Below are positions 1,272-21,222 of a stretch of DNA of 30,223 nt, in pieces (within the stretch, counting starts at the first letter, position 1; each line of letters begins with the position of its first letter). A program made the translations under genes and the position numbers. The stretch comes from a virus, in IMG/VR virus record IMGVR_UViG_3300048592_000628, positions 1 to 30,223 of that record, one strand, 5' to 3'. The notes under the pieces were generated by a model. The model made no database searches, was not told the DNA's origin, and saw only the letters and a list, made by a program, of their open reading frames with translations.

Positions 1272-2870
1272 ATGTGGATCTTCAGCGGAACGCAGCGCCA
1301 CAATCCGAGCTCGCCCGCGCTGCTCAGAATTGATCGGTCAAACGCGCTGGGAGCGCTCCTCGAATTCGGGTTATTCGGGGCGGTCAATCGCGACATTGTG
1401 CGCGGAACTTTTAATGCTAACGGGGAAGGCGTTGCGTCTATCGCGCCGTTGCACGGGAACGCTATCGGCGTGTCGTCCGCGGGCGGCGAGGCCTATGATG
1501 TGGCGGCGTTCGCGGGCTTTCCGACGACTCTCCAGAACGACGCGCCTAAGACAGTATACATTCTGGCGCAGTGGTCGGTTTCGGGTTCTCACGTCGAGAA
1601 CTTGTGCGTCGTCGACAACGGCTACGGGTGGAGGTTCGACCAGTTCAATAACACGAGCGTCACCTTCGATTTGAAGTGGGGCGGCGTGTGGTCCGGTGGT
1701 GGCGGTACGGCGCAAACCGTCAGCATGAGCAACGGCGAGATTGCATCAATAACGGCCGCGCACAATGGCACTCAGACGAACGGCGTTCGTTACTTCAAGA
1801 ATGGCGTTCTACTCGCCGAAGTTGGCGCCCTGGTTGACCCCGGGAACTGGTCAGCGTCTCCGCGCGTCCGGGTGGGGAATCACTCCGGGGGCAGCGGGTT
1901 ACAGGGCAATCGCTATTTTGCGGTCCTAGTTTTTCGTGGTCAGCTTGGGGACGCGCTGGTCAAACGGGTCCACGACAACCCGTTTCAGGTCCTCGCCCCC
2001 CTCCGCCGCCGCCTCTACTTCTTCGGCACGGCGGGCGGCCAGATCATCTCCGTCGGCCAGGCGCTCGAGACCGACCTCGCCCAGGCGATCGCGCTTGCGC
2101 CGCAGCGCCGCCTCGTCGCACAGGCGGCCGAGACCGACACCGCCCAGGCGATCACCCGCCACAAGGCGCTGGCGATCGGCCAGGCGCTCGAGACCGACCT
2201 CGCCCAGGCGGTCACCCACGCGAAGGGAAAGCTCCTCGGGCAGGCGACGGAAACTGACACCGCGCAGACGATCACCAGCGCGAAGGCGAAGCTCCTCGGC
2301 CAGACGACCGAGACCGACGCCGCCCAGGCGATCACCGTCAGCGGGAACAAGATCATCGCGGTCGGCCAAGTGACCGAGACCGACGCCGCGCAGGCGCTCA
2401 CCGCGCGGAAGAGCAAGACGCTCGGCCAGACGACCGAGACCGACCTCGCCCAGGCGGTCGCGCACGCGAAGGCGAAGCTCCTCGGCCAGGTGACGGAGAC
2501 CGACGTCGCCCAGGCGATCACCGCCAGCATCCCGAACCAGGTCGGCCAGGTGCTCGAGGCCGACCTCGCGCAACCGTTGAGCGCTCGCAAGGCGAAAGCC
2601 CTCGGCCAGGTCGCGGAGTCCGACGTCGCGCAGGCCGTCACCGCCGCCAAGACCAGGGGCCTCGGCCTCGCGCTCGAGATCGACCTCGGCCAGCCGATCA
2701 CCTTCGCGCCGATGCACCGCCTGGTCGCCCAGGCGACCGAGACCGACCTCGCCCAGGCGATCACCGCGCACCTGTCGAGCGTGCAGCTTCCGCAGGGCAA
2801 GCGCTACGCCGTCGGCCCGCGCCTCGGTTACCGCGTCGGGCCGCGGAACAACTTCCGCGTGGACGAGTGA
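1272..2870 (+). CDS. LamG-like protein with 12 x 20-aa ETD-AQ repeats, 532 aa
   Basis: Residues about 40-235 are Gly/Asn/Ser-rich and beta-like with a concanavalin/LamG flavour (YILAQWSVSG, WRFDQFNN, RYFKNGVLLAEVG, FAVLVFRGQL). Residues 261-504 hold twelve tandem units of 20-22 residues with consensus (L/V)GQxxETDxAQAIT. The end is a short basic/aromatic tail (RYAVGPRLGYRVGPRNNFR). No signal peptide. LamG-like folds often bind glycans, so an adhesion or decoration role is plausible, but the repeat has no function known to me. It lies in the head/neck cluster rather than with the tail fibres. Bases 1290-1990 look less G+C-rich and use A/T-ending codons more than the repeat part, suggesting a mosaic gene with a grafted N-terminal domain. 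Confidence 0.8.
   Translation: MWIFSGTQRHNPSSPALLRIDRSNALGALLEFGLFGAVNRDIVRGTFNANGEGVASIAPLHGNAIGVSSAGGEAYDVAAFAGFPTTLQNDAPKTVYILAQWSVSGSHVENLCVVDNGYGWRFDQFNNTSVTFDLKWGGVWSGGGGTAQTVSMSNGEIASITAAHNGTQTNGVRYFKNGVLLAEVGALVDPGNWSASPRVRVGNHSGGSGLQGNRYFAVLVFRGQLGDALVKRVHDNPFQVLAPLRRRLYFFGTAGGQIISVGQALETDLAQAIALAPQRRLVAQAAETDTAQAITRHKALAIGQALETDLAQAVTHAKGKLLGQATETDTAQTITSAKAKLLGQTTETDAAQAITVSGNKIIAVGQVTETDAAQALTARKSKTLGQTTETDLAQAVAHAKAKLLGQVTETDVAQAITASIPNQVGQVLEADLAQPLSARKAKALGQVAESDVAQAVTAAKTRGLGLALEIDLGQPITFAPMHRLVAQATETDLAQAITAHLSSVQLPQGKRYAVGPRLGYRVGPRNNFRVDE
2052..2783 (+). repeat. 12 tandem coding repeats of about 60 bp
   Basis: These twelve units encode residues 261-504 of the LamG-like protein. 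Ten are exactly or nearly 60 bp, and units 1, 5 and 11 carry one or two extra codons, always in frame. Invariant or near-invariant positions are GQ, E(T)D, AQ and a following small hydrophobic. The variable part is a basic stretch such as THAKGKL or TARKSKT. The DNA is similar between units, so slippage or unequal recombination could change copy number without breaking the frame. Confidence 0.85.
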
Positions 2871-16617: not shown

Positions 16618-17004
16618 TTGACCCGAACGCAACGCAACCTCTTCGCCTTCGCCGTCGGCTTCGCCATCGGCGGCTATGCCGCGCTCTCGGACGCGACCGG
16701 CGTCCACGCGCCACCGCCGATCGTCTTGAAGCCGCCCGTGCTCGTCGCGCCGGCGACGATCGCCCCAACCGCGCCCCCGCCGCCGTCCGTGGCGGTCACT
16801 CCTCCTCCCGCGTCCGTCGCTGCTCCCGAGCAGCCGGCGGCGGGCGGCCGCGGCCCGGGCGCGCTCGGGTGGTGGGTGATGGCCGGCGTGGCGATCTACT
16901 TCGGCGCGGTGATCCGCGAGCACTGGCTGTGGTGCATCGAGGACGACCGCAAGCCCGAGCGCGAGCGCCGCTGCTACAGGCCGCTCCGCGATGGAATGCC
17001 GTAA
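16618..17004 (+). CDS. Two-TM protein with Pro-rich linker (copy A), 128 aa
   Basis: A TTG start at 16618 follows AGGAGAAAGCC. The N-terminus MTRTQRNLFAFAVGFAIGGY is a short basic head plus TM helix. A Pro/Ala/Val-rich linker follows (residues 30-80), then a second TM (GWWVMAGVAIYFGAVI) and a charged C-terminus with two Cys. The start and layout are shared with the minus-strand gene at 20860-21222; the first 18 codons align clearly even at the DNA level, including the SD region. No family recognised. Position after endolysin and before spanins suggests a role in lysis timing (inference). The function is not known to me. Confidence 0.7.
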   Translation: MTRTQRNLFAFAVGFAIGGYAALSDATGVHAPPPIVLKPPVLVAPATIAPTAPPPPSVAVTPPPASVAAPEQPAAGGRGPGALGWWVMAGVAIYFGAVIREHWLWCIEDDRKPERERRCYRPLRDGMP

Positions 17005-17079
17005 TGCACCAGGGTGCCGACCGTCTCGCATAGTTGCATAGGCCCGATCGACCTTCTCCCCATCCGCAAGGAGCTGCCG

Positions 17080-17499
17080 ATGATCAAGGATCTCGTGACC
17101 ACCACCGCCGGGCGCGTCGATGCCTGGGACGTCGTCTTCGTGATCGCGGTGCTCGCCGCGCTCGCCGGCTGGTACTGGTGGAGCCGCAAGGCGACCAAGC
17201 ACCCCGAGTACGCGGCGCGCCGCGAGTCGGAGATCGACGCGACGCTCGCGAAGACGATGCACCGCCTCGGCTTCAGCGACGAGCAGATCGCCAGAGCGGT
17301 CGGCGTCAACCTGGTCGCCGCCGGCCAGGACACCTACGCGCAGCTCAAGACCGCCCAGGCGAGCTTCCAGGCGCGCTACCAGGCGGCGGTCGAGGAGCTG
17401 CAGGTCAAGGCCGCTGAGTACTCCGCCGCGCAGGAGCTCGTCGCGAAGCTCCGGGCGATCGCCGGCAGCAGCGGGACGCCCCCGCCGCCGGCCGCGTAG
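17080..17499 (+). CDS. Membrane-anchored coiled-coil protein, 139 aa
   Basis: A clear SD (AAGGAG, seven bases before the ATG at 17080) sets the start. One TM segment (DVVFVIAVLAALAGWYWW, residues 17-34) is followed by a cytoplasm-like basic stretch (SRKATKHPEYAARRESE). Then comes a helical part with a small domain (MHRLGFSDEQIARAVGVNLV) and a coiled-coil stretch (TAQASFQARYQAAVEELQVKAAEYSA) ending in a Pro-rich tail. It does not match holin, endolysin or spanin families that I know. Its position three bases before the i-spanin implies lysis-module co-expression. Confidence 0.68.
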   Translation: MIKDLVTTTAGRVDAWDVVFVIAVLAALAGWYWWSRKATKHPEYAARRESEIDATLAKTMHRLGFSDEQIARAVGVNLVAAGQDTYAQLKTAQASFQARYQAAVEELQVKAAEYSAAQELVAKLRAIAGSSGTPPPPAA

Positions 17500-17502
17500 C
17501 CC

Positions 17503-17889
17503 ATGCCCTGGGGCCTCCTCGTCAGCGCGATCCCCTACCTGGTCGCGGCCGCGATCGGGGGGAAGCTCGCCTGGTCGATCCAGGGCCACCGCATCGACGG
17601 ACTGAAGGCCGACGTGACCGCGGCCGAGTCGGCGACCGCCGCCGCCCGCGCCGAGCGCGACAACTGGCGCGAGGTCGCCGCCGAGTGCGGCGCCAGAAGC
17701 CTCGCCCTGGAAGCCGACAGCAACAAGCGCCTCGCCCAGGCCGCCAGACAGGCCCAGGCCGCGCGCGCGGCCGCCCAGGCCGCGGACCAGGCCCTCGAGC
17801 GCCTGCGCGCCCAGCGGGCCGCACAGCCGGCCGGCACGGCGAAAACGTGCGACGAGGCGATCGACGCGTTCAAGGAGGCGATCCGATGA
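17503..17889 (+). CDS. i-spanin, Rz-like inner-membrane subunit, 128 aa
   Basis: Spanins bridge the inner and outer membranes at the last step of lysis. The N-terminal TM (LLVSAIPYLVAAAIGGKLAW) is followed by a long Ala/Arg/Gln-rich coiled coil (ADVTAAESATAAARAERDNW ... AQAARQAQAARAAAQAADQ) and a short end with one Cys (KTCDEAIDAFKEAIR). Length and layout are typical of Rz. The stop overlaps the ATG of the lipoprotein partner, the usual arrangement for Rz/Rz1 that are not embedded. No family-specific motif exists, so the call rests on architecture and pairing. Confidence 0.82.
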   Translation: MPWGLLVSAIPYLVAAAIGGKLAWSIQGHRIDGLKADVTAAESATAAARAERDNWREVAAECGARSLALEADSNKRLAQAARQAQAARAAAQAADQALERLRAQRAAQPAGTAKTCDEAIDAFKEAIR

Positions 17890-18164
17890 CGACCCGACCC
17901 GCGGCGGCGATCGCCGCCCTGGCGTTCGGCCTCGCAGCCTGCGCTACGCCCCCGGCGCCCCGCCCCGAGCTCGTGCAGGTGCCGGTGGCGGTGCCGTGCC
18001 TGCCGCCTGAGCTCCCCGACGCCCCGCCGACGACGCCGACCGGCGCTTTCAACGTGATGACGCGCGGCGAGGTCGCCTCGATCCTGGCCGAGGAGTGGCT
18101 CGCGTACGCCGCCTGGATTCAGCGCGCGCGGCCGTATCTGGAGGCGTGCAGGGTAAAGCCCTGA
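17886..18164 (+). CDS. o-spanin, Rz1-like outer-membrane lipoprotein, 92 aa
   Basis: A lipoprotein signal (MTTRPAAAIAALAFGLAACA) has a lipobox FGLAAC with Cys19, the likely lipidation site. The mature part is Pro-rich near its start (ATPPAPRPELVQVPVAVPCLPPELPD), as expected of an o-spanin, and ends in a helical segment (MTRGEVASILAEEWLAYAAW). It overlaps the i-spanin stop by four bases. It is the last rightward gene before attP. Confidence 0.85.
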   Translation: MTTRPAAAIAALAFGLAACATPPAPRPELVQVPVAVPCLPPELPDAPPTTPTGAFNVMTRGEVASILAEEWLAYAAWIQRARPYLEACRVKP

Positions 18165-18168
18165 GGAG

Positions 18169-18184
18169 CTACCCAATTCGCGGG
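18169..18184 (+). other. Candidate left arm-type integrase site
   Basis: CTACCCAATTCGCGGG resembles the two right-arm repeats at 18370 and 18390 (CTTCCCAATTCGGCG) and lies 103 bases left of the tRNA-like core. Flanking arm sites are expected in attP of tyrosine recombinases. Confidence 0.5.
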
Positions 18185-18219
18185 CGCTCGCTGGGGGCAG
18201 GTGAGGCGCCAGCGGGCGC
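18184..18219. repeat. Inverted repeat after the lysis cassette
   Basis: GCGCTCGCTGG at 18184-18194 pairs with CCAGCGGGCGC at 18209-18219 (10 of 11 bases) around a 14-base loop. It lies 20 bases past the o-spanin stop. No T-run follows, so it is a weak candidate for the late transcript terminator or a structural part of attP. Confidence 0.45.
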
Positions 18220-18286
18220 ACCGATTACCCGCATGTACGCCGCAAAGGTGGTCGAAAAACAGGAAGTTGGGCCGACCGCGCGGCCC

Positions 18287-18333
18287 GATTCGTAATCAGT
18301 AGGTCGGTGGTTCGAGTCCACTCACCAGCACCA
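18287..18333 (+). other. attP core: 3' end of tRNA-Thr(CGT)
   Basis: The bases from GATTCGTAATC to CACCAGCACCA match the 3' part of a tRNA: anticodon loop TTCGTAA (CGT, Thr), variable loop, T-arm GGTGG-TTCGAGT-CCACT, acceptor strand CACCAGC, discriminator A and CCA. The 5' half is missing: there is no GCTGGTG acceptor partner upstream, and the left anticodon stem reads CCCGA instead of the ACTGA needed to pair with TCAGT. So this is the identity segment that restores the host tRNA on integration, not a tRNA gene. It is 74 bases from the integrase stop. Confidence 0.87.
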
Positions 18334-18369
18334 AGAATCAACGACTTAGGCCGGTCAGGATAGCGCCGA

Positions 18370-18404
18370 CTTCCCATTCGGCGCGACGGCTTCCCAATTC
18401 GGCG
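18370..18404 (+). repeat. Two direct repeats, candidate right arm-type integrase sites
   Basis: CTTCCCATTCGGCG (18370-18383) and CTTCCCAATTCGGCG (18390-18404) are spaced 20 bases apart, about two helical turns, between the core and the integrase stop. A related sequence lies left of the core at 18169. The first repeat also lies within a 7-bp hairpin (18363-18369 with 18378-18384). Confidence 0.6.
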
Positions 18405-18406
18405 GT

Positions 18407-19576
18407 CTACTCGTTCGGCTTCACGCGCTGAACGCTGCGCAGATAGTGCCGCCGCGTCGTGCGCGGGTCGGTGTGGCCGGCGAAGCGCTGGGCGTCCTCG
18501 CCGCGCTGCTCGGCGCGGTCGATCGCCGCGGCGCGCAGGTCGTGAAAGTGCAGGTCGTCAAGCGGCGGGAGCTTCGCCGCTTCGAGCCAGGGCGCGGCGT
18601 CGACGACGTTGATGTACTCGGCCGCGGCGATCGCCGCGCGCGCGCGCTCGAGCAGGCGCGCCCACATCGATTGGAAACCCTCGACGCTGAGCGGCGCGCC
18701 CTTGGTCTTGCCGAGGCCCTTGGGGAAGACGACAAGGCTGTCCTTCGCGCCGGGGAGCTCGCGCGACGCCTCCCAGATCGCGCGCAGCGCCGGCGTCCAC
18801 TCCCAGAGCTGCTTGCGGCCGCGCTTGGCCTGGCGCAGGCGCACGCCTTCGGGTGTCGCCTGGGTGCGGCTGAGCGTGCGGACGTCACCCTCGCGCCAGC
18901 CGGTGGCGCGCTCCCATAGCACCATGAGCGCCTCGCGCTCGCCGGCGACGGCGAGGATCGCCTCGAGCTCCCATTGCGCGACCTCGCGATCGCGCGGGAT
19001 TTCTTCGTGGCGGCGCACGCCGGTGCAGGGGTTATAGACGGTGAGGCCCCAGCGGCGCGCGTCGCCGAAGACGGTGGAGAGGAGCGCGAGCTCGCGGTTC
19101 GCGCTGATCAGCGCGGCGTGGCCGTCGAGCCAGGCCTGCAGGTCGCGCGTGCCGAGGCACTCACCGCGCGCGGCCTCGGCCTCGGTCTTGGCGTAGCGGC
19201 GCGCGCCCCAGCGTTCGCGCAGGCGCACGAGCTGCCGCGCATACTCGCGGCGGGTGCGCGGGGCGAAGCGCGCTTTGCCGCGCGCGTCGATCGCGGGCAG
19301 CGAGTCCGCCTCGAAGCGGTCGACGAGCTCGGCGAGCGTGCCGGCCGCGGCGTCGGCGCGGTCGAGGTCCCAGCGGCTCTTGTGGAGCTTCGACCAGGTG
19401 CGGCGCATCTGCTCTGGGTCGGCGCCGAGCGGGATCGTCTCGGGGAGGCCTTTGGCGCGGCGCTCGTCGCGCTCGCGGCGCGAGGTCGCGCGGTAGTAGT
19501 AGCGGCCGTCGATCAGGCGGACGCCGGCGGGGAGGTCCAGGCGCGTGCGGCGAGTGCGGCCCATGGGAGGGGGCAC
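18407..19576 (-). CDS. int: Tyrosine integrase, 389 aa
   Basis: Site-specific recombinase for integration at the tRNA-Thr(CGT) site. A basic N-terminal arm-binding part (LPAGVRLIDGRYYYRATSRR, 15-34) precedes a SAM-like core-binding domain (about 78-180, ARFAPRTRREYARQLVRLRE). The catalytic domain shows Arg228 (TGWREGD), Lys251 or Lys255, His345 and Arg348 (HDLR), His368 (GHTD) and nucleophile Tyr378 (RRHYLR), so the set is complete. The GTG at 19576 has a well-spaced GGAG; an ATG at 19564 is possible. It is the last gene of the leftward operon, and its 3' end faces attP. No recognisable excisionase adjoins it. Confidence 0.93.
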   Translation of the reverse strand: MPPPMGRTRRTRLDLPAGVRLIDGRYYYRATSRRERDERRAKGLPETIPLGADPEQMRRTWSKLHKSRWDLDRADAAAGTLAELVDRFEADSLPAIDARGKARFAPRTRREYARQLVRLRERWGARRYAKTEAEAARGECLGTRDLQAWLDGHAALISANRELALLSTVFGDARRWGLTVYNPCTGVRRHEEIPRDREVAQWELEAILAVAGEREALMVLWERATGWREGDVRTLSRTQATPEGVRLRQAKRGRKQLWEWTPALRAIWEASRELPGAKDSLVVFPKGLGKTKGAPLSVEGFQSMWARLLERARAAIAAAEYINVVDAAPWLEAAKLPPLDDLHFHDLRAAAIDRAEQRGEDAQRFAGHTDPRTTRRHYLRSVQRVKPNE

Positions 19577-19579
19577 AGT

Positions 19580-19777
19580 CTACTCCGTGATGGCAGCGGC
19601 GAGCTCGCGCGCGTGCGTCTCGATCGCCCGTAGGCGCTGCAGCTCGGCCTCGGGGATCTCGTGCGTGGTCCAGCGGTGGCCGCACTCGGGGCAGCGCAGG
19701 CGCCGGCGGCCACCCTCGGAGTGGAGGAGCACACCGCGGGCGCGGGCGCAGATTGGGCAGGTGCGGGGCTCGCTCAT
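19580..19777 (-). CDS. NrdR-like zinc-ribbon protein, 65 aa
   Basis: Residues 7-10 (CPIC) and 29-32 (CPEC) form a two-knuckle zinc ribbon. The second knuckle context RRRLRCPECGHRWTTHE is very close to the NrdR N-terminal ribbon (RRR-x-x-C-x-x-CGxRFTTxE). The ATP-cone of NrdR is absent; the rest is one helix (EAELQRLRAIETHARELAA). Small phage zinc ribbons of this kind are probably DNA-binding regulators. Its stop is three bases from the integrase start, making it a candidate for integrase control or recombination directionality (inference only). Confidence 0.75.
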   Translation of the reverse strand: MSEPRTCPICARARGVLLHSEGGRRRLRCPECGHRWTTHEIPEAELQRLRAIETHARELAAAITE

Positions 19778-19788
19778 AAAGCCGGCCC

Positions 19789-20442
19789 CTAGCAGCTAGG
19801 ATTCATTGGCACGGACGACGTGGTCGCGCTCCCTGCGCCTGATGTATCCGTCCGCATGCGCTTGAGCATCTTGGTCCGCGATTCCTTGTTGTATTCCGGC
19901 AGCAACGCGTCAATGAAGTGCCGCTCAATCGCATCTAGCTCTTCGCGTTTGGCGGGCATGTAGCATGCGTAGCGGAACTTTTTGTGGCTGTCCCACAGGT
20001 GATCGTGTACTCGCTGGAAGACGTTGATCGATTGGCCCACGTAGACAACTCGCTTCTTCTCATCGAGAAGAAAGTACACACCGCACCCGAATCGGCGCTT
20101 GTGTATCGGTTGAGCCCGATTCGCGAGCATTGCACGCATCCATTCAATGTTTGGGATATCGAGTGTCTTTACAGCAGCGATCGGGTGGACTCGTAGGGGC
20201 GGGGCATTAATCAAACGAGTCCGAGCCAGACGCACCGCGCTCCGTATAGACCAAGCTGCTTGAACGGCCCGCCGATGTTCTTGCCTGCGCCGTTCTAGGT
20301 GTTGCAACTCCCATGCGAGCTCCCGCCTTTTCGTCTCAAGACGTTGAGCTAGGTCATTTGCGCGGCCAACGCGGCGATCGAGCCGATCGATTTCTGCTTG
20401 AATGAGTTGGGATGCGCGATGGAAATCAGAGGTCGTGCTCAT
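19789..20442 (-). CDS. GIY-YIG nuclease-domain protein with coiled-coil N-terminus, 217 aa
   Basis: Residues 15-65 are a charged coiled coil (RLETKRRELAWELQHLERRR). Residues 118-190 are a GIY-YIG domain: GVY at 121-123, YVG at 134-136, Arg144 (FQRVHDH), Glu173 (AIERHFI) and Asn185 (PEYN), so the catalytic residues look intact. Family members cut DNA as homing, restriction or repair nucleases; the target here is unknown. The gene is clearly less G+C-rich than its neighbours (for example 20100-20200), suggesting recent acquisition as a moron. It starts with ATG at 20442, with GAGG upstream. It could be a free-standing homing nuclease or a phage-competition nuclease. Confidence 0.85.
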   Translation of the reverse strand: MSTTSDFHRASQLIQAEIDRLDRRVGRANDLAQRLETKRRELAWELQHLERRRQEHRRAVQAAWSIRSAVRLARTRLINAPPLRVHPIAAVKTLDIPNIEWMRAMLANRAQPIHKRRFGCGVYFLLDEKKRVVYVGQSINVFQRVHDHLWDSHKKFRYACYMPAKREELDAIERHFIDALLPEYNKESRTKMLKRMRTDTSGAGSATTSSVPMNPSC

Positions 20443-20449
20443 GGTGACC

Positions 20450-20863
20450 TCAGCGCTCGACCGTGATCCCCAGCGCCGCCTGGATCGACGGCCCGCGCTC
20501 GCCGCGCATCGCCGCCTCGATCTTCGGCCGCAGGAGGCCCCGGCGGTCGAGGAAGCGCATCCAGCGGATGGCGCCGGCGACCAGGCGGTCGCGCGAGCTG
20601 CGGTCGAACGTATAGCGCTTTACGAACCGTCGCTGCGCTTCGGTGAGGACCGGGGCCGCTGGGACGAGCGGGCCGATAATGCTGAGTCCGGTCTCATAGT
20701 GGTCGATGCGCCAGTCGCGCGGGCCGTCCTTGCGCACGCAGACGTGCACCCAGCGCAGATCCGGCGGCAGCTCGACGGCGAAACCGTCCACGAGCCAGCC
20801 GGTCGTGTTGTAGACCGCGATGCGGTACTCGAGCGGCGCATAGCGGACTGCGGGACGGGTCAC
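20450..20863 (-). CDS. Hypothetical protein, 137 aa, coupled to the two-TM gene
   Basis: The GTG at 20863 overlaps the TGA of the upstream gene (GTGA), chosen over a longer frame that would run inside it. The sequence MTRPAVRYAPLEYRIAVYNT, DGFAVELPPDLRWVHVCVRK and DWRIDHYETGLSIIGPLVPA looks like a small mixed alpha/beta fold; the C-terminal half is basic and helical (RRFVKRYTFDRSSRDRLVAG). No family is recognised. No signal peptide or TM. Being coupled to a membrane protein suggests they may act together. Confidence 0.65.
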   Translation of the reverse strand: MTRPAVRYAPLEYRIAVYNTTGWLVDGFAVELPPDLRWVHVCVRKDGPRDWRIDHYETGLSIIGPLVPAAPVLTEAQRRFVKRYTFDRSSRDRLVAGAIRWMRFLDRRGLLRPKIEAAMRGERGPSIQAALGITVER

Positions 20864-21222
20864 CTGGGCCACCAGTCTTGCGGCCGGCAGTGCTCGGCGA
20901 ACCAGGTGCCGGGGTTGTTGCCGCGCTCGGCGGTGCAGATCACCGCGTAGAAGTAGGTGAGGACGCCGAGGAACGCGCCGCCACCTTGCACGAGCCAGGA
21001 ATCCGTGCGAGCGCCGGCGGGCGTGGCTGCGGCTGGCGCGGTCGAGGCCGCGGCCGGGGCGGCGGCCTGTGCAGCGGCCGGGGCTGCGACTGTCGCGGCA
21101 GCGGCCGCCTGCTTGGCGACGACCGGCGCGACGACTTCGACGGTGGCGAAGGCGGTCACGGCGATCGCGCCGAGCAGGATGCCGACGGCGAAGGCGGCCA
21201 GGTTGCGTTCGAGGCGGGTCAT
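20860..21222 (-). CDS. Two-TM protein with Ala-rich linker (copy B), 120 aa
   Basis: MTRLERNLAAFAVGILLGAI gives a basic head and TM helix, followed by an Ala/Pro-rich linker (about 30-72), a second TM (GGGAFLGVLTYFYAVI) and a Cys/Trp-rich end (CRPQDWWPR). The start sequence, SD region (GGGAGAAACG) and layout match the plus-strand gene at 16618-17004, so they are paralogues in opposite orientation. Copy A belongs to the lysis cassette and this copy to the leftward operon; one could antagonise the other, like holin and antiholin. That is inference: no functional motif is seen. Confidence 0.7.
   Translation of the reverse strand: MTRLERNLAAFAVGILLGAIAVTAFATVEVVAPVVAKQAAAAATVAAPAAAQAAAPAAASTAPAAATPAGARTDSWLVQGGGAFLGVLTYFYAVICTAERGNNPGTWFAEHCRPQDWWPR

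Follow-up and report, generated by a model that had tools for sequence, protein, structure and literature searches.

Two small genes of the same general plan, each predicted to encode a protein with two transmembrane (TM) segments, lie in opposite orientation around the attachment site and integrase of a temperate phage. The locus raises the question of whether they are copies of one gene and, if so, what a phage would do with one copy beside its lysis genes (A) and another in a leftward operon (B). The window, meaning the whole stretch of DNA that was analyzed, comprises 30,223 bases of the virus record IMGVR_UViG_3300048592_000628. It carries tail genes, a lysis region, the attachment site, the integrase, and a leftward operon extending up to a CI-like repressor, together with a rightward VapE-type primase and an HNH gene. 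The C-terminal half of the protein encoded at 1272-2870 (+) contains about ten near-repeats that follow the pattern GQxxETDxAQAIT. Since none of the genes in the 30,223 bases was recognized as a terminase, portal, or capsid gene, the record is probably incomplete. Within the collection, just two genomes, both metagenome-assembled genomes of Betaproteobacteria, match the attP core exactly, in tRNA-Thr(CGT); this suggests from sequence that the host belongs to this group. The features discussed below are collected in the table.

Table. Features of the lysis region, the attachment site, and the leftward operon (positions in the window).
Feature	Start	End	Strand	Remarks
Holin 1	15370	15669	+	phrog_2359 holin, E 8.8e-22; 44% to PPpW-3 holin gp63
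Holin 2	15666	15941	+	phrog_2508 holin, E 4.3e-7; three hydrophobic segments
One-TM ORF of 41 aa, flanked by holin 2 and endolysin	15938	16063	+	Overlapping start and stop; without profile match
Endolysin	16060	16608	+	GH108 and peptidoglycan-binding domain
Gene A	16618	17004	+	128 aa; TTG start; GGAGAAA Shine-Dalgarno (SD) sequence
Conserved block 1 in A	16618	16671	+	MTRTQRNLFAFAVGFAIG; 12/18 identical to block 1 in B
Conserved block 2 in A (TM2)	16885	16914	+	GVAIYFGAVI
One-TM protein adjoining A	17080	17499	+	Long C-terminal tail
Inner-membrane spanin (Rz) candidate	17503	17889	+	By position and architecture only
Outer-membrane spanin (Rz1-like lipoprotein) candidate	17886	18164	+	phrog_812, E 0.0047; weak match to JC1 Rz1
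attP core	18287	18334	+	48 nt identical to 3' part of host tRNA-Thr(CGT)
Tyrosine integrase	18407	19576	-	
Soluble 137-aa gene	20450	20863	-	GTG start overlaps stop of B (GTGA)
Gene B	20860	21222	-	120 aa; ATG start; GGAGAAA upstream; paralogue of A
Conserved block 2 in B (TM2)	20938	20967	-	GVLTYFYAVI
Conserved block 1 in B	21169	21222	-	MTRLERNLAAFAVGILLG
47-aa one-TM protein	21219	21362	-	Stop overlaps ATG of B (ATGA)
ParB-like protein	21359	23041	-	Upstream of B in leftward operon
Leftward sigma-70-like promoter match	25321	25349	-	TTGACA-17-TATGGT; consensus match only

An earlier, sequence-only reading had described the two genes as an inverted duplication with matching SD regions. Both open reading frames are present at the positions and on the strands it gave, and the 7-mer GGAGAAA precedes the starts of A and B and no other among the 27 starts inspected. 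Their GC content at third codon positions (GC3; 0.90 in A, 0.88 in B) is in line with that of the adjoining genes. In an all-versus-all comparison of the 46 window genes, A and B form the sole significant pair, with phmmer E-values of 1.8e-9 and 1.2e-8 (0.012 for the next-best pair) and a blastp E-value of 7.7e-6; after SEG masking, blastp still aligns residues 1-27 at 2e-4. A likeness confined to generic signal-anchor residues, which that reading had named among the grounds for its own refutation, does not hold up. The first 18 residues are identical at 12 positions, whereas none of 112 SD-preceded signal-anchor N-termini from other loci shares more than 6 of these positions with A or more than 7 with B. 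A second block lies in TM2, where the best 16-mer identity is 8 (shuffle P 0.0013); among 3,273 TM-like segments, 0.03-0.09% do as well. An inverted-repeat search run without guidance recovered the same block in register (as I4), and the two blocks are collinear. The remainder of the proteins is less alike: alignment of the linkers does not exceed that of shuffled sequences (P 0.16), their resemblance being one of composition only, and the C-terminal parts are not significantly similar by gapped shuffles (P 0.08). The tails are weakly similar, each with two Cys residues and, as aligned, a common C-x(0-1)-RP motif. Convergence, in which the likeness is generic to N-terminal signal anchors followed by Ala/Pro linkers, would suit these latter regions, but it is largely refuted by the N-terminal background, the TM2 block, and the masked blastp match, and is considered very improbable. 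Judged by their sequences, A and B are genuine homologues, namely anciently diverged paralogues.

The nucleotide sequences give a different picture from the clear DNA-level similarity claimed earlier over the first codons. Codons 2-18 are identical at 38 of 51 nucleotides (P 0.10 given the protein identity and codon bias) and the TM2 block at 23 of 30 (P 0.16 given the proteins and phage codon usage). Since this is what the proteins and codon usage yield, neither stretch points to a recent duplication or to gene conversion. The genes share identical runs of up to 16 nt, and RecA requires about 20-30 bp of identity for efficient recombination (PMC3071677, PMC8918686). For both reasons, the pair goes back, on sequence grounds, to an ancient duplication, or else to separate acquisition of two related genes, and is not a recombination substrate. 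It had also been proposed that recombination between A and B would invert attP and the integrase. Their inverted arrangement around these elements has the required geometry, but the longest exact run falls short of the length needed for homologous recombination, imperfect inverted pairs are common in the region (61 that are 18 nt or longer), and the inversion itself was not observed; an invertible segment is therefore unsupported and exceedingly improbable. The earlier observation accordingly stands for the reading frames, the SD region, and the protein similarity, and falls for the DNA-level similarity; of its interpretation, homology, the two-TM plan, and placement in opposite transcription units are upheld, the inversion is not, and the label of lysis copy holds for A by position only.

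The TM segments of A span about residues 7-25 and 82-101, separated by a Pro/Ala linker and followed by a charged C-terminal tail with two Cys residues. In B, the corresponding segments occupy about residues 7-26 and 77-97, with an Ala-rich linker and a tail that likewise contains two Cys residues. TM1 of A is weakly hydrophobic (hydropathy peak 1.51), and an AlphaFold model of A contains two helices, 3-27 and 82-102, at low confidence (mean pLDDT 55). From charge and hydropathy, both proteins would fit a membrane hairpin, with an Arg-bearing N-terminus inside, a disordered Pro/Ala loop outside, and the charged C-terminal tail inside.

Searches for further members of the family with A, B, or their alignment returned no relatives in viral contigs, nor were any found among phages and plasmids (tblastn), in contigs of 85,000 genomes, or, for A and B each, in 300 host-order genomes. 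An N-terminal profile of the pair recovered no relative from 74 host-family genomes, and neither protein matched any of the families in PHROGs, Pfam, and NCBIfam. Weak matches to the queries were dismissed as low-complexity Ala/Pro-linker matches or chance matches in non-phage genes. As far as the searched collections go, A and B appear by sequence to constitute their own orphan family.

Gene A lies directly 3' of the endolysin, and together with its one-TM neighbor it separates the endolysin from the spanin candidates. Without these two genes, the cassette follows the common order holin-holin-GH108 endolysin-Rz-Rz1. The phages JC1 and PPpW-3 show the same order, with touching holin, holin, endolysin, and Rz genes in direct succession (the JC1 lysozyme is 48% identical to the window endolysin), but in them neither a counterpart of A nor a one-TM gene separates endolysin from Rz. 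By this comparison, A and its neighbor would be additions inserted into an otherwise complete lysis cassette. It follows that A need not be the holin: two profile-identified holins are already present, and the holin role implied by the label of lysis copy is not warranted. Of two marks of a holin, A has small size with one to three TM segments inside a lysis cassette, B lies outside the cassette, and a profile match is lacking in both. Neither protein has an Rz/Rz1 profile match or a lipobox. A role for A as a pinholin was dropped, as inspection by eye revealed no TM segment at the N-terminus of the GH108 endolysin. Endolysin and tail-protein searches gave relatives with different lysis modules. 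In one contig (L150, 1-5333), the tail protein of the window recurs at 83% identity beside an unrelated lysis module with a LydA-like holin and a different endolysin. The comparison of these sequences presents a clean case of lysis-module exchange, which indicates that such modules move.

Gene B sits in a leftward gene series that runs from the repressor region to the integrase, and it is coupled by overlapping stop and start codons to the 47-aa TM protein before it and the soluble 137-aa gene after it. Operon layout, position, and strand suggest that B is expressed early or in the lysogen. The one-TM neighbors of A and B share no sequence homology. Variovorax phage VarioGold and Acidovorax phage Aval resemble the window in carrying a homologous ParB in the leftward operon, between repressor and integrase, as well as small TM proteins in that operon; they differ in that no homologue of A or B was found in them. 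In viral contigs, neither the ParB nor the gene after B has relatives. The same operon contains a GIY-YIG-type gene (19789-20442, -) with a GC3 of 0.62 compared with about 0.9 in its neighbors, and for this reason it is probably, by its composition, a recent arrival.

Known lysis systems offer two precedents. F1 mycobacteriophages, the experimental precedent for a two-TM and a one-TM protein acting jointly in lysis, encode a holin-like pair, the two-TM LysF1a and the one-TM LysF1b, both of which are needed for efficient lysis (PMC13056207). By its description, this arrangement resembles A and its neighbor in that the lysis cassette pairs a two-TM protein of N-in/C-in topology with an adjacent one-TM protein, and it is, by analogy, the nearest functional precedent for such a pair in lysis. 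LysF1a differs in its length (88 aa) and Gram-positive host, and the abstract describes no early-operon paralogue of it, in contrast to A and B (PMC13056207); the window possesses two other holins in addition. In phage P1, several holin-like genes (LydA, LydB, LydC, and LydD) are spread over separate, unlinked operons (PMC9025707), and this distribution in a temperate phage parallels that of the two-TM genes in the window. P1 differs in having a SAR endolysin and in that its Lyd holin-like products have been shown to act in lysis (PMC9025707); no relation of A or B to the four Lyd proteins was found.

Conservation confined to the helices, the one-TM neighbors, and the LysF1a/LysF1b and P1 precedents together favor, with moderate confidence, a reading in which A and B are orphan two-TM inner-membrane paralogues, A being a lysis-cassette accessory and B a related membrane factor of early infection or lysogeny. 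Under this proposal, A would act late, as an accessory on an already complete holin-holin-endolysin-spanin cassette, and A and its one-TM neighbor would most likely tune the timing or extent of membrane damage. B, translationally coupled to the 47-aa protein, would most likely have a related function at the membrane during early infection or lysogeny. Because only the anchor and TM2 are conserved, the activity common to both is probably self-association or packing through the helices.

The pair had earlier been said to suit a pair of antagonists. Here, B, made early or in the lysogen, would hetero-oligomerize with A through TM1 and TM2 and block its membrane damage, an antiholin role that would guard against lysis that is premature or leaky. 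The conserved blocks are exactly the membrane helices, the parts expected to interact, and the genes belong to opposite transcription units; A, however, is placed in lysis by its position, is not evidently the lethal protein where two other holins exist, and differs from B in tail and linker, so that antagonism seems unlikely. An antiholin of the paralogue type would share its sequence with the holin that it inhibits; B is homologous to A, at most a putative holin. A more elaborate version, in which one duplicated orphan gene yields a two-operon lysis timer, the early copy hetero-oligomerizing with the late one to set the lysis threshold and each copy working with its own one-TM partner, is decidedly improbable. 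A further possibility is that the two genes are xenologues, members of one family that arrived separately by module exchange and took up independent, unlinked roles, that of B being superinfection exclusion or membrane protection. Exchange of the kind seen in L150, where a wholly different cassette accompanies a closely related tail protein, would provide a route, DNA similarity points to no recent duplication, and the left operons of VarioGold and Aval also contain TM proteins; yet no source searched yielded another family member as donor, and separate arrival, including the role it assigns to B, is regarded as doubtful. The preferred reading remains that of a late lysis accessory and a related early or lysogenic membrane factor.

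If A and B do not interact, they would illustrate plainly how a phage can put one orphan membrane-protein family to use at two places in its genome, and would equally warn against calling a gene a holin because it lies in a lysis cassette. If they do interact, the phage would show how an early operon can set lysis timing in advance, by way of a duplicated membrane protein that lies outside the described holin families.
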